From: a virus
DNA length: 20,860 bases
Strand: one strand, 5' to 3'
Virus record (IMG/VR): IMGVR_UViG_3300020204_003634
Coordinates: 1-20,860 of that record
Part shown: piece after piece, positions 7,150 through 16,943 of the stretch
How positions within the stretch are numbered: position 1 is the first letter of the stretch
How the letters are laid out: each line of letters opens with the position of its first letter
Notes under the pieces: generated by a model
Told to the model about the DNA's origin: nothing
Seen by the model: only the letters and a program-made list of their open reading frames with translations
Databases searched by the model: none
Program-made: the position numbers and the translations under genes

Positions 7150-7243
7150 TGGCGGAGAAGGTGGGATTTGAACCCACGGACACCTTTTGAGATGTCGACA
7201 TCTTAGCAGGATGTTCCATTCAACCGAACTCTGGCACCTCTCC
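7150..7243 (-). tRNA. tRNA-Ser, anticodon GCU, CCA encoded
   Basis: A full class II cloverleaf on the minus strand. The acceptor stem GGAGAGG pairs with CTTCTCC, and the D-stem is CCA/TGG. The anticodon arm is ACATC-CTGCTAA-GATGT, with anticodon GCT reading AGC/AGU. A long variable arm (GACATCT/AGGTGTC) and the T-arm GTGGG-TTCAAAT-CCCAC follow. The discriminator is G, as in serine tRNAs, and CCA is encoded. It lies 7 bp after the exonuclease gene and is probably cut from the same transcript. Confidence 0.97.
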
Positions 7244-13866: not shown

Positions 13867-14385
13867 TTAGTATGTATTAAAAAAATCCGAGTCCATAAAA
13901 GAGCCTTTATCTTCCCTAAACGAAGCAACCTGCATAGACTGTATCTTATCCATAAGCTTTCTTGCAGACTCCGACGCAATTCTTGCTGCTGACTCCATGG
14001 CCTCCGCTAAATGTACGATGGCCTCACAAGTTATCAAAGCAAAATACTCATCCTCCGCAGCGTCCATTGCTGCTGCTTCTCTCTCAGCTTCGTTTTTACC
14101 TATGCGATTAGACTTATATACTTTTTTATATTTTCCTTCTAATATTTTATATTGAGCTCTAGCTATTCCAGTAAATCTAGCTGCTCTACCATAGACATTA
14201 GAAGTTCTAGCTACAAGAGAGGCTATTTTTTCTATACCCAAATCTACAACATCTGTTTCTGGAATTTCAATAAAATACTTATACGAGTTGTTGTTGTCGC
14301 TGTAGGCATCAATGACTTCTTTTAGTTGAGGCCCAAGAAACTGCTGCAACATTTCCTGAAGTTTTTCAAGAGTTGAACTGTTCAT
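13867..14385 (-). CDS. Helical 172-residue phage protein
   Basis: A protein rich in Ala, Glu and Lys, starting at an ATG four bases after GGAGA and overlapping the sigma-factor stop as ATGA. The central block (RTSNVYGRAARFTGIARAQY) is followed by YKKVYKSNRIGKNEAEREAA, then long predicted helices (LAEAMESAARIASESARKLM) and a short tail. The arrangement of a YGRAARFxGIARA block, a GKNxxEREA block and an ARxxSESARKLMDK block recurs in phage proteins encoded beside replication genes, function unknown. Translational coupling to the sigma gene hints at a shared role, for example as a regulator, but nothing in the sequence shows it. Confidence 0.75.
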   Translation of the reverse strand: MNSSTLEKLQEMLQQFLGPQLKEVIDAYSDNNNSYKYFIEIPETDVVDLGIEKIASLVARTSNVYGRAARFTGIARAQYKILEGKYKKVYKSNRIGKNEAEREAAAMDAAEDEYFALITCEAIVHLAEAMESAARIASESARKLMDKIQSMQVASFREDKGSFMDSDFFNTY

Positions 14386-15248
14386 TTGTTCTCCATTTTT
14401 AATAAATAGTAAAGTTCTTCATACGAGAACTCGTCTTCTAGAAGTATTTGTTTTATTTTTTCTCTAACTTTAGAGAGATGTTCCCTCACCGTATTGGGGT
14501 GCTCATTAACAATTTGGGAAATTTGACTTGACCTTTTGTTGTCAATATATCTCCATTTTAGCAGCTGCCTCTCTTGTATCGAAAGCTTATCGAATGGTCC
14601 TTCAACATTTTCTCCTAAGACCCAGAATTCGTCTATTCTATCAGTTGCCATTAGTCTTTCCATGCTATATTCGATTGGATCCGCCTTAAACCCAACAACG
14701 TAGTCCTCGTCACCTTCATCACTTGTAGCCTCGTCATCTAACAATAGGAACGTTTTTCTACCTAACTGATCAATCAAAAAGGTGTCTACATTTTTCTTTA
14801 AAAGATAAAAAAAGTAGCTATATAAAAATCCACTAAATGGTATTGGCCCTTTTGCCGAGTCTCTTCTTTCATACCTTCCAACACACTGAAAGAATGTCAT
14901 GTACACTGTTTGACGAATATCTTCTTCATCACCATATCTTTTTGTCATATAATGAATGCCACGCATTGTTTCATTGATCACGCTTAAGGTATAAGTGTTT
15001 ACTTTATTTTTCATAAGTGCAAATCTTATAGGCGACTCTTTAATAAACAGAGAAACAAATCTCCTAATATCATAATCACTTAAATTATATTTACCATGAT
15101 ATAATAACGAAATATATTTAGTTAAAAAGTTATTAAAAACCTTTAACAATTGCTCTTGAGATTTTTGGCAGCCCTTTTTGCTATCGGCAATTAATTTTTG
15201 CATCTCCTCTTCAGCTAAAGAGTAATATTGCTCCTTGTAACTTATCAT
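14382..15248 (-). CDS. Phage sigma-70 family sigma factor
   Basis: A 288-residue protein with two sigma-like parts. Residues 104-160 match region 2: RYGDEEDIRQTVYMTFFQCV then GRYERRD and FSGFLYSYFFYLLKKNV, with the acidic-aromatic pattern that binds RNA polymerase and melts the -10. Residues 220-268 match region 4, a helix-turn-helix (LSIQERQLLKWRYIDNKRSS, then QISQIVNEHPNTVREHLSKV). An acidic linker separates them. It would redirect host RNA polymerase to phage promoters. It starts as ATGA at the end of the endonuclease gene and lies in the unit with a TTGATT-N17-TATAAT promoter. Its likely targets are the TTACTATWT motifs (inference). Confidence 0.9.
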   Translation of the reverse strand: MISYKEQYYSLAEEEMQKLIADSKKGCQKSQEQLLKVFNNFLTKYISLLYHGKYNLSDYDIRRFVSLFIKESPIRFALMKNKVNTYTLSVINETMRGIHYMTKRYGDEEDIRQTVYMTFFQCVGRYERRDSAKGPIPFSGFLYSYFFYLLKKNVDTFLIDQLGRKTFLLLDDEATSDEGDEDYVVGFKADPIEYSMERLMATDRIDEFWVLGENVEGPFDKLSIQERQLLKWRYIDNKRSSQISQIVNEHPNTVREHLSKVREKIKQILLEDEFSYEELYYLLKMENK

Positions 15249-15811
15249 TTCTTTCCTTCCCAGTGAACTATATACTCACTGTAATAATCTCTAAAGTCTT
15301 CATAAAAGATAATATTAGGCACTTCTAGTTGTTCCATCGTGCTCTTTGCGTCATTCGAATATTTGCTTATTACGCAAATCAGACTTTTAAATTCATCTGG
15401 ATAATATCTTTTAAACCTTTTTAATTTAATTTTACTTTTATCATCTAAATAACCTTTTATCTCTATCCAGTCATTATTTCTACTCAAGAGAAAATCTGGT
15501 GTATACCCCCTGGTTCCCCTTTTGATTGGGAAGGAAAACACAGTGGGTTCAAATTGAAAATTAATTTTGTAAATCTTTAATACTCTGACAAAATTTGCCT
15601 CCCAACTAGAACGAACATTCATATCTATATCTTTTCTATAACCAGTCTTAGTATACTGATATGCATTTCCCTTTTTCCTGGAAATAACTGCATCGTTCTC
15701 AATTACTTCAGAGTCAACAGATCTGTTTCTAATATTTTTTAAATTTGGATGTTTTTTAAACGAAGATTTTTCCAAAAAAAAGTCTTCTGGGTTGACAATC
15801 TCTGTGCTCAT
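15245..15811 (-). CDS. PD-(D/E)XK endonuclease
   Basis: A 188-residue protein from the ATG at 15811, six bases after AAAGGA; an upstream in-frame start lacks such a site. The nuclease core is clear: SSWEANFVRVLKIYKINFQFEP (E71), GYTPDFLL (D106) and DWIEIKGY (E117, K119). This E...PD...ExK order is found in TnsA-like, Holliday-junction-resolvase-like and T7 endonuclease I-like phage enzymes. It probably cuts branched or recombination DNA, though a host-degrading role is possible. It is the first gene behind the promoter at 15849-15877 and is coupled to the sigma factor by an ATGA overlap. Confidence 0.87.
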   Translation of the reverse strand: MSTEIVNPEDFFLEKSSFKKHPNLKNIRNRSVDSEVIENDAVISRKKGNAYQYTKTGYRKDIDMNVRSSWEANFVRVLKIYKINFQFEPTVFSFPIKRGTRGYTPDFLLSRNNDWIEIKGYLDDKSKIKLKRFKRYYPDEFKSLICVISKYSNDAKSTMEQLEVPNIIFYEDFRDYYSEYIVHWEGKK

Positions 15812-15848
15812 TGTGTATCCTTTACGCATCAAGATATTTTGTAGATAA

Positions 15849-15877
15849 ATTATACACTATCTTGATAAAAAAATCAA
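15849..15877 (-). promoter_or_regulatory. Sigma-70-like promoter for the endonuclease-sigma unit
   Basis: On the minus strand, TTGATT (15877-15872), 17 bp, TATAAT (15854-15849). The start site would fall near 15842, giving a 30-nt leader with an AAAGGA site before the ATG at 15811. It lies back to back with the plus-strand promoter; their -35 boxes are only 6 bp apart. Confidence 0.75.
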
Positions 15878-15883
15878 AATAGG

Positions 15884-15912
15884 TTGCAAATTCCAAAGAA
15901 AGAGAGTATACT
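15884..15912 (+). promoter_or_regulatory. Near-consensus promoter for a leaderless plus-strand gene
   Basis: TTGCAA (15884-15889), 17 bp, TATACT (15907-15912) on the plus strand. The ATG at 15920 comes seven bases after the -10, so initiation at the normal distance would leave no leader. It is the only strong plus-strand promoter seen. Confidence 0.75.
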
Positions 15913-15919
15913 GTTCATC

Positions 15920-16096
15920 ATGAACACACTAAAAACAATCATCAGCAGCATCAATCAAACAATCAACGAGGAAACCATTGACGACATAACCAAGGTTCTA
16001 GATATGGACCATGAATCAGCTGTCAAAATGGTGACCGAGTTTGAGGATTTCGACCTTTGGCTCTCCGCTGAGGAAAATCCCGTAACCGATTTCTGA
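15920..16096 (+). CDS. Lone plus-strand 58-residue acidic protein
   Basis: The only gene on the plus strand. The product is small and acidic, starting MNTLKTIISSINQTINEETI and ending WLSAEENPVTDF, with two probable helices; no family is recognised. Codons end in C or G far more than in the neighbours (ATC, GAC, ACC, GAG, CTC), unlike the A/T-ending codons around it. A near-consensus promoter sits directly before it, there is no room for a Shine-Dalgarno, and a very strong terminator follows 16 nt after the stop. It is therefore a self-contained, probably highly expressed unit. Its small acidic form is compatible with an early host-takeover protein or an anti-factor, but that is speculation. 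Confidence 0.78.
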   Translation: MNTLKTIISSINQTINEETIDDITKVLDMDHESAVKMVTEFEDFDLWLSAEENPVTDF

Positions 16097-16112
16097 TTGG
16101 TGTTTTCCTAAC

Positions 16113-16144
16113 AAAAAAGACCGGGGGAAACCCCGGTCTTTTTT
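16113..16144. terminator. Strong bidirectional terminator
   Basis: AAAAAAGACCGGGG, loop GAAA, CCCCGGTCTTTTTT: a perfect 14-bp stem with a GNRA-type tetraloop and T-runs on both strands. It ends the plus-strand gene and, on the other strand, the polymerase-nuclease unit, whose last stop codon overlaps it by two bases. Confidence 0.97.
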
Positions 16145-16943
16145 ATTGTCCATTATTCTTTTTATTTCTAAAAACACCCGTTGGACATGCACCGCTTTTA
16201 GCATGATCGCAATATGAGCACACACGGGCATTAGAGGTTGGTGTAAAATTAGTATCGTTAATTATTTCAGTTATAGAACTAATTAAATTTATCTTTACAT
16301 TTTCAATATCTTCGTTAGTAAATAGGTGGCCCTTTTTCTTGCCAGATCTTAGATAATGTAATTCTGCGTAAATTTCTTTTTCAGGAAAGATATTGTGCAT
16401 AGCCAATGCATAGATGCCCAGCTGCAGATTGTTTGGCACATCTTTTAGGGCAACCTCCCATTTTCCTGTTTTGTAGTCAACGATATTAACCCTGTCACCA
16501 ATCACATCAACTCTATCTATGAAGCCAAGAATTTTATAGCAACCAATGATAAAATTAAAAGGTAACTCTTTTTCATAAATATTAAACTTCTTATCGTAAT
16601 ATTGGTCATAAAATTCTTGCAGGATTACAGATCCAACAGATATTAAATCCTTTGGTATATTATTATCTGGATCCCAAACAGAAATATTCTTATTATATTC
16701 TTGCTCTAACTCATTAATATCTAGTGTCTTTTCATTATCTAAAACACTCTCCAGTACAGAATGCACTATATTGCCTAATGCAGCGGGAGAGTTAAACAGC
16801 CGTGGCTCTTTGCAAATATATGAATAAAAATATTTAGCAGGGCACTGCTGGTATGTATCTATTCTGGAATATGAAAAATCTACTAAAGCTAGAAACTGCA
16901 AATCTGTTAAATCATTATAACTTTTAATTTTAATTAAACTCAA
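16143..16943 (-). CDS. Cas4/RecB-like Fe-S nuclease
   Basis: A 266-residue PD-(D/E)XK nuclease of the Cas4/AddB family. Conserved elements are C34 (YQQCPAKYFY), H61 (GNIVHSVLES), D143 (GFIDRVDV), D156-x-K158 (VDYKTGK) and Q174 (QLGIYAL). A C-terminal cysteine cluster, C242, C245 and C253 (VCSYCDHAKSGACP), with C34 supplies four ligands for a 4Fe-4S cluster. Such enzymes resect DNA ends, and phage copies are linked to recombination and replication. There is no CRISPR array in the window. The start is TTG at 16943, six bases after AGGAG; no ATG is available near it. It is the last gene before the bidirectional terminator. Confidence 0.92.
   Translation of the reverse strand: MSLIKIKSYNDLTDLQFLALVDFSYSRIDTYQQCPAKYFYSYICKEPRLFNSPAALGNIVHSVLESVLDNEKTLDINELEQEYNKNISVWDPDNNIPKDLISVGSVILQEFYDQYYDKKFNIYEKELPFNFIIGCYKILGFIDRVDVIGDRVNIVDYKTGKWEVALKDVPNNLQLGIYALAMHNIFPEKEIYAELHYLRSGKKKGHLFTNEDIENVKINLISSITEIINDTNFTPTSNARVCSYCDHAKSGACPTGVFRNKKNNGQ

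Follow-up and report, generated by a model that had tools for sequence, protein, structure and literature searches.

Leaderless genes and small orphan proteins of phages are both kinds of gene that are already known. In bacteria, TA-led genes are defined by a TANNNT motif situated about 12 bp upstream of the start (Zheng et al., 2011; PMC3160421) and, in the accessible part of that account, they lack a Shine-Dalgarno (SD) sequence and have orthologues that can differ in their mode of initiation. For mycobacteria, the accessible text of PMC4633059 describes leaderless transcripts with the promoter directly before the start and no SD sequence, for which an ATG or GTG at the 5' end is necessary, and small proteins are found among the genes concerned. 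For its start, bacterial RNA polymerase favours a site 7 bp, and seldom takes one more than 9 bp, below the -10 box, with a purine at +1 and a pyrimidine before it on the coding strand, according to the part of PMC5730371 that is available.

The window, that is the whole stretch of DNA analysed here, is a 20,860-base virus record that contains a gene for an acidic protein of 58 amino acids, here labelled LEAD58. As in TA-led genes, a TANNNT motif is found about 12 bp upstream (the first T of TATACT lies 13 bp before the ATG), an SD sequence at normal spacing is absent, and the lineages of the gene differ in their mode of initiation. As in mycobacterial leaderless transcripts, the promoter stands directly before the start and there is no SD sequence. 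LEAD58 is unlike the TA-led set in that it belongs to a phage and to one locus, at which the -35 triplet, the spacings and the pyrimidine at -1 have been kept over many lineages, and it is unlike the mycobacterial transcripts in that it is known from sequence alone. The features of the locus are as follows:

14382..15248, minus strand: gene for a phage sigma-factor-like protein (phrog_1740, E 1.2e-8), next downstream of the resolvase gene
15245..15811, minus strand: gene for a Holliday-junction resolvase, T7 endonuclease I-like (phrog_9019, E 7.3e-16), the first gene after the divergent promoter
15849..15877, minus strand: divergent promoter of the resolvase-sigma genes, TTGATT-N17-TATAAT, with its -35 box at 15872-15877
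15884..15889, plus strand: -35 box TTGCAA of LEAD58; TTG at 17 bp (18 bp in L118) from TANNNT in 24 of 36 upstream types
15907..15912, plus strand: -10 box TATACT of LEAD58; TANNNT at 7 bp (6 bp in L071) before the ATG in the same 24 types
15919..15920, plus strand: predicted initiator, C at -1 and the A of the ATG as +1, 8 bp downstream of the -10 box
15920..16096, plus strand, stop included: LEAD58 gene, ATG at 15920 and stop codon TGA at 16094-16096, supported by relatives, pN/pS and third-position changes
16113..16144, both strands: bidirectional intrinsic terminator, 14-bp perfect stem with a GAAA loop
16143..16943, minus strand: gene for a RecB-like PD-(D/E)XK nuclease (PDDEXK_1, E 1.5e-28), convergent with LEAD58, its stop overlapping the terminator

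The explanation that we favour, and consider likely as a whole, is that of a leaderless, insulated core gene for a docking protein. A host-type RNA polymerase would read LEAD58 from its own sigma70-like promoter, the transcript would very probably start at the A of the AUG, and it would end at a hairpin that is also able to end the convergent dnaE-recB unit. A message starting at the AUG carries neither a leader nor an SD sequence and must initiate by the leaderless route, and its own promoter together with the shared hairpin would make LEAD58 an insulated one-gene unit between two minus-strand transcription units. We hold this leaderless, insulated core-gene part to be highly probable; its architecture and conservation are observed directly, and the RNA ends and the polymerase are deduced from them.

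The claim of an acidic plus-strand protein was borne out, since the frame at 15920-16096 encodes 58 residues with a net charge of -11. When the window protein was used as query, 36 viral loci encoding LEAD58 relatives were obtained, and an 11-member alignment as query raised this number to 44. In ten comparisons of the window LEAD58 with its relatives pN/pS ranged from 0.10 to 0.29, and the changes in relatives fall mostly at third codon positions, as in the comparison with L008, where 3, 3 and 18 substitutions were counted at the first, second and third codon position. The reading frame, whose conservation in relatives had been named beforehand as a decisive check, is kept across lineages, and with the relatives, the constraint and a promoter of its own LEAD58 can be retained as the self-contained plus-strand gene of the original prediction. 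It lies in a genome of nearly uniform orientation: open reading frames (ORFs) of at least 60 residues, collected greedily from the window, amount to 157 amino acids on the plus strand and 6059 on the minus strand. The stretches read from two related 193-kb records are also mostly one-stranded and become more mixed near the record starts.

Upstream of the gene, TTGCAA, a 17-bp spacer, TATACT and 7 bp leading to the ATG at 15920 form a promoter that resembles a sigma70 promoter, and it stands back to back with the promoter of the sigma unit just as had been described, with 6 bp between the -35 boxes (15872-15877 and 15884-15889). In the window alone this -35/-10/ATG arrangement was found once against 0.24 expected, and 23 of 100 shuffles contained at least one, so that the spacing between promoter and ATG is not beyond chance in a single window and its weight comes from the relatives. 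When the 2513 ATGs of five loci were screened, 9 showed the arrangement, and the five known LEAD58 genes should be among these. In six records of 21-194 kb, the promoter-ATG site of LEAD58 was present in all and was the only site common to them; among the other promoter-ATG sites in G001 and G002 none was common to both. Around the divergent -10 box, an imperfect inverted repeat with 16-nt arms (81%; window 15828-15866) was noticed. Its candidacy as an operator was dropped because, judged by eye, the repeat is not conserved in other lineages.

For a comparison across lineages, 82 loci including the window were sorted by 45 upstream bases and the protein into 36 distinct types. These counts left out L004, L012 and L026, which have a complete LEAD58 gene with the promoter arrangement as in the window, and L023 and L038, which are cut. 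The arrangement TTG-N17(18)-TANNNT-N7(6)-ATG was found in 24 of the 36 types, the spacer being 18 bp in L118 and the distance from TANNNT to ATG 6 bp in L071. An SD core (AAGG, AGGA, GGAG, GAGG or AGGT, with its end 4-10 nt upstream of the ATG) was detected in none of the 24 promoter types and in 8 of the 12 types without the promoter; three others of these 12 (L123, L150 and L165) have an SD-like core that lies, by eye, 11-13 nt away, and the remaining type is the L140 group. Similarly, a pyrimidine precedes the ATG in all 24 promoter types (23 times C and once T, in the L146 type) and, with L140 set aside, in 3 of 11 types without the promoter, where it is always T; before any ATG in six loci, a pyrimidine was counted in 587 of 1081 cases. 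As the 36 types are not independent, Fisher significance for the SD core and for the -1 base is overstated. A pyrimidine at -1 in the promoter types agrees with transcription from the A of the AUG, and this A fits as +1 under the start-site rules as given in the available part of PMC5730371. In 12 lineages with N17/N7 spacing, the only invariant positions among the 45 upstream bases are TTG, TA...T and the C at -1; because these lineages were chosen for that promoter, the invariance of TTG and TA...T follows from the choice, whereas that of C at -1 does not. The set of 12 includes L225 and L254 and does not cover the L146 type, with its T at -1, nor L071 and L118, whose spacings differ. A leaderless gene, as originally proposed, is thus very probable from the upstream sequences, and both the leaderless start and the conservation stand on firmer ground than the first reading could know.

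In a midpoint-rooted tree built from the resolvase, RecB and sigma proteins, upstream regions of the two kinds stand nearly cleanly apart with at least two changes, L123 being an SD type placed among leaderless ones. As few as two changes would suffice, which argues that the leaderless form is one old state that has been well kept, and since SD-led LEAD58 occurs at the same place in sister lineages, leaderlessness is a trait of lineages and no requirement of the protein. At this locus one gene has switched naturally between leaderless and SD-led forms, with the -35 box, the -10 box, the -1 base and the SD sequence changing together, which makes the rules for leaderless starts, and the reason why a phage keeps them, directly testable. 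In the L140 group (L140:3731-3883, with L142, L143, L144, L147 and L148) the promoter TTGTAG, 17 bp, TATAAT is kept, and in all six loci an ATT occupies the place of the leaderless start and an ATG overlaps the -10 box; in L254, a relative of L140, an ATG is at the expected place. As mycobacteria need an ATG or GTG at the 5' end, at least in the accessible text of PMC4633059, a leaderless start of the same kind is not to be expected in the L140 group, which offers a natural test of start-codon rules.

In all 23 loci found through LEAD58 itself, the gene lies on the strand opposite to the flanking resolvase and recB genes; its presence there is by construction, and the finding is its place. With the resolvase as query, the best 80 of at least 394 confirmed related stretches were taken, and 44 of these were examined further, the other 36 being contigs already in the LEAD58-query sets. 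The window protein as query finds LEAD58 in 41 of the 44 loci, and of the 43 that have flanks (L121, without a flank, is excluded), 42 carry a family frame bordered by the resolvase and RecB-like nuclease genes; L145 has a family frame that the window-protein query missed. Among 16 further resolvase-found loci, on contigs new to the analysis and kept out of the 36 upstream types, LEAD58 is present in 15, and the sixteenth, L266, is cut by the contig end. Only L103, a close relative, lacks the frame among the 43 flanked loci: at L103:1925-1945 the AT of the start codon runs straight into the 3' part of recB, so that LEAD58, the terminator and the recB 3' end are removed in this one contig, at a junction without shared bases. 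Either a natural loss or an assembly fault could account for this gap, and the absence from this contig means that LEAD58 is perhaps dispensable. Being strongly constrained and found in nearly every locus examined, LEAD58 is, as judged from sequence conservation, a real core gene in a group of tailed phages that are large and uncultivated.

Some individual loci deserve mention. In the SD-led copy of L224 an ACG (L224:2909-2911) stands where the ATG start is expected, and in the group of L265, L267 and L268 recB and sigma are split over reading frames and the resolvase match lacks the first 46 residues. In Pfam comparisons the window resolvase scored 23.5 bits against Phage_endo_I, under the cut-off of 29.1, and the sigma-like protein 26.2 bits against Sigma70_r4_2, over the cut-off of 25.7. 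As to affinities of the genome, the resolvase matches are mostly from Bacillus phages, the window DnaE is less than 40% identical to Streptomyces and other phage enzymes among the matches listed, the portal protein of a related record reaches 34% with Moorella and Bacillus phages, and for the window epimerase the best 80 matches include relatives at 60-66% from many phyla.

At the 3' side, the 14-bp perfect stem with a GAAA loop is present as had been described. The assignment of this terminator to LEAD58 alone was not retained, as it is placed for the convergent recB gene too. The plus-strand hairpin has a folding energy of -24 kcal/mol (shuffles: mean -9.65, sd 2.63; z -5.46), the minus-strand hairpin is as good with -25.8, and the recB stop codon (16143-16145) overlaps the hairpin end; the equal minus-strand fold and this overlap indicate that the hairpin can serve both convergent genes. 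In an alignment of 20 hairpin sequences including the window, 6 of the 8 consensus pairs show changes on both sides, and breaks or gaps affect 14 of 160 cells.

Codon usage of LEAD58 is indeed unlike that of its neighbours, 14 of 22 NNY codons ending in C as compared to fractions of 0.13-0.44 in 19 other window genes. This bias is also found in SD-led copies. A ranking by codon bias of 167 ORFs, taken from the window and from seven stretches of the two related 193-kb records, put two LEAD58 copies 4th and 8th and the predicted major head protein of a related phage 11th, with 0.52 of its NNY codons ending in C. The ranking covered ORFs of at least 60 residues that lie whole within their stretch and have 10 or more NNY codons; the LEAD58 ORFs were taken from an upstream TTG and so include a few promoter codons, and some other high ranks are perhaps spurious frames. 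The codon bias is a hint of high expression and has no bearing on its timing, the early expression of the original claim being a conjecture, and of the earlier claim of a strongly expressed gene there stands a bias above that of the predicted major head protein, codon usage being the one line of sequence evidence that bears on it. At the starts of two 193-kb relatives (L170:716-1732 and L172:220-2087), genes with the same C-ending bias were noticed, mostly without a PHROGs match, which are possible early or host-takeover genes.

The 34 distinct proteins of the LEAD58 family have 54-68 residues and net charges of -7 to -13. An AlphaFold2 model from 15 sequences (mean pLDDT 76.8, pTM 0.53) places helices at residues 2-27 and 31-52, so that LEAD58 is predicted to be a small acidic helical hairpin. 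Residues 15-35 form a helix-Gly-aromatic-helix motif like that of the UBA/TS-N domain (PF00627). In a Pfam search of a 25-member alignment, 8 of 25 members matched UBA at E <= 1 (best E 0.00014), and as the best score among 8 proteins scored was 22.1 bits, against a curated cut-off of 22.4, the family cannot be counted as UBA. The likeness extends over about 20 residues; the UBA domain is a three-helix bundle, the LEAD58 model has two helices, and a UBA chain (2dzl) compares with the model at Z 3.1. Other Pfam, PHROGs and NCBIfam results were weak. The window protein had a best E of 0.035 in PHROGs and of 0.031 in Pfam (DUF1706, 14.6 bits with a cut-off of 24.2), and none at E <= 1 in NCBIfam. 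For the 25-member alignment, Pfam gave, besides UBA, mTERF for one member (E 0.0021), PHROGs a best E of 0.011 among 25 of 32 families listed, and NCBIfam an adenine phosphoribosyltransferase model for one member (best E 0.0033) and RuvA for 4 of 25 members (best E 0.022). These matches below threshold, UBA, mTERF and RuvA among them, were taken as chance or as an effect of the shared helix-Gly-aromatic-helix motif. The protein family was found in none of Pfam, PHROGs and NCBIfam, and within the libraries searched the view that LEAD58 has no known family can stand, the members checked reaching no curated Pfam cut-off. Of 39 stretches of bacterial genomes that matched LEAD58, none was confirmed as a relative, and three family queries found no convincing relative in INPHARED phage records, where the window protein gave three matches at E 2-7 only and two divergent members none. 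No account of LEAD58 was found in the literature, in a search that was not aimed at proving absence from print.

Acidic C-terminal tails with a terminal Phe are carried by T7 gp2.5 and by bacterial SSB. LEAD58 has such a tail as well: the terminal Phe is present in 25 of 25 members of alignment A4 and is usually preceded by Asp, Glu or Asn, tails such as STF, DLF and EAF (L257) being exceptions. Its codon is TTC in 41 of 41 frames, which were preselected to end in Phe, a selection that does not apply to the 25 members of A4. At 54-68 residues, and predicted to be helical, LEAD58 has no room for an OB-fold domain. A title on T7 gp2.5 is among the references of PMC9917605. The tail suggests that LEAD58 docks at a basic pocket of some protein of replication or recombination. 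The tail and the helix-Gly-aromatic-helix core would bind a basic pocket on a host or phage nucleic-acid enzyme, and LEAD58 might then be an abundant docking adaptor or inhibitor that recruits or blocks this enzyme, a wholly inferred role that we put forward tentatively. Binding to RNA polymerase or to a nuclease, raised in the first reading, is likewise a conjecture. Against docking, the L265 group (L265, L267 and L268) ends in NSFPVNS without a terminal Phe, and an SSB-like protein of related phages ends in SIPSSF. As this tail, read in a survey of ORFs of at least 60 residues, is not acidic, mimicry of an SSB tail was kept only as a lead; the SSB-like gene was over the cut-off in 2 of 7 related records. 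A beta-clamp partner was judged unsupported because family PF02768 is absent from all seven related records, which are maybe fragments.

The main rival for the function is that LEAD58 is a DNA mimic inhibiting a host nuclease, in the way that T7 gp5.9 acts on RecBCD. The two are alike as small, acidic, helical phage proteins, gp5.9 being described as highly acidic and coiled-coil in the accessible text of PMC9836394, and size, charge and predicted helicity of the family would suit such a role, as would a place among recombination and replication genes. However, no sequence or fold match to gp5.9 was found: PDB sequence profile searches gave no useful match, and Foldseek searches of PDB and viral libraries none at E <= 0.001. 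We also know of no counterpart in gp5.9 of the terminal Phe and the conserved core, and a conserved VTEF-DF segment together with the terminal Phe suggests a specific docking surface in preference to spread-out charge. We think that DNA mimicry is an unlikely role.

With respect to the start site, LEAD58 might instead be leadered, with an RNA that starts further upstream, for instance where the divergent promoter has its pseudo-symmetric TTATACA region, and with the purine tract GAAAGAGAG acting as an SD sequence at a 13-nt spacing. Bidirectional promoters are known in bacteria (PMC12825309 and PMC10268837, in their accessible parts), sister lineages have an SD sequence at the matching place, three of them at 11-13 nt by eye, and a purine-rich tract about 12-16 nt before the ATG is retained within the promoter spacer of many leaderless types. 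Such a tract could be a relic or a poor SD sequence, and it means that distance from the ATG alone does not cleanly separate SD-led from leaderless genes; in L071, a GGAG stands 2 nt upstream of the first ATG, with 11 nt between it and a second in-frame ATG. What does separate the two kinds is the promoter pair and the -1 base. The complete promoter-ATG arrangement with a -1 pyrimidine in two thirds of the types (24/36) speaks against a leader, and types with an SD sequence at normal spacing lack the TTG-TANNNT pair and mostly the -1 pyrimidine, which makes a leadered LEAD58 improbable. At other genes of the window, an AGGA or GGAG core was seen by eye at 15 of 25 starts.

A stronger version of the leaderless explanation, and one that we regard as a long shot, is that LEAD58 is a phage core effector locked to leaderless translation and the founder of a new docking-protein family. 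Selection would then act on the promoter and on the bases at -1 and +1 for a start exactly at the AUG. If this were true, LEAD58 could be translated while SD-dependent initiation is impaired during infection, and its acidic tail with the terminal Phe would take over a pocket of a replication or recombination protein.

Doubtful, too, is a role as a transcription co-factor acting with the phage sigma-like protein or with host RNA polymerase, comparable to T4 gp33 or the acidic repeats of NusA. LEAD58 is back to back with the unit that holds the sigma-like gene, one of 25 members matched Pfam Trans_coact (E 0.12), and NusA appeared among the Foldseek rows (8y5l_NA, E 2.1, 33% identity) and in a second structure comparison (6flq_F, Z 4.8, rmsd 1.9 over the 40 residues 340-379). 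However, all these scores are at chance level: the T4 gp33-type late co-activator family PF16805 gave no significant match (E 0.12 in 1 of 25 members), and the PDB sequence profile search contained no NusA at E <= 10. The top rows of the second comparison were mixed, with an oxidoreductase at Z 6.5, HU/IHF at 5.2-5.5 and NusA at 4.8, all of which the comparison rates as a common arrangement; NusA was weighed and set aside.

That the frame is a chance one, or belongs to a small RNA ended by the terminator, might be suspected from its mere 58 codons and the strong terminator 3' of it, but the excess of third-position changes, the low pN/pS, the frame kept across lineages and a tRNA as sole Rfam match in the window make this reading highly implausible. 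The window carries a tRNA-Ser (gct) at 7150-7243 on the minus strand, and six tRNA genes were counted in the first 40 kb of the related record G002. At 526-2145 of the window, tandem PTVTTGPTPGSVPSQ repeats lie in a minus-strand ORF for what is perhaps a structural protein, and their repeat count may vary.
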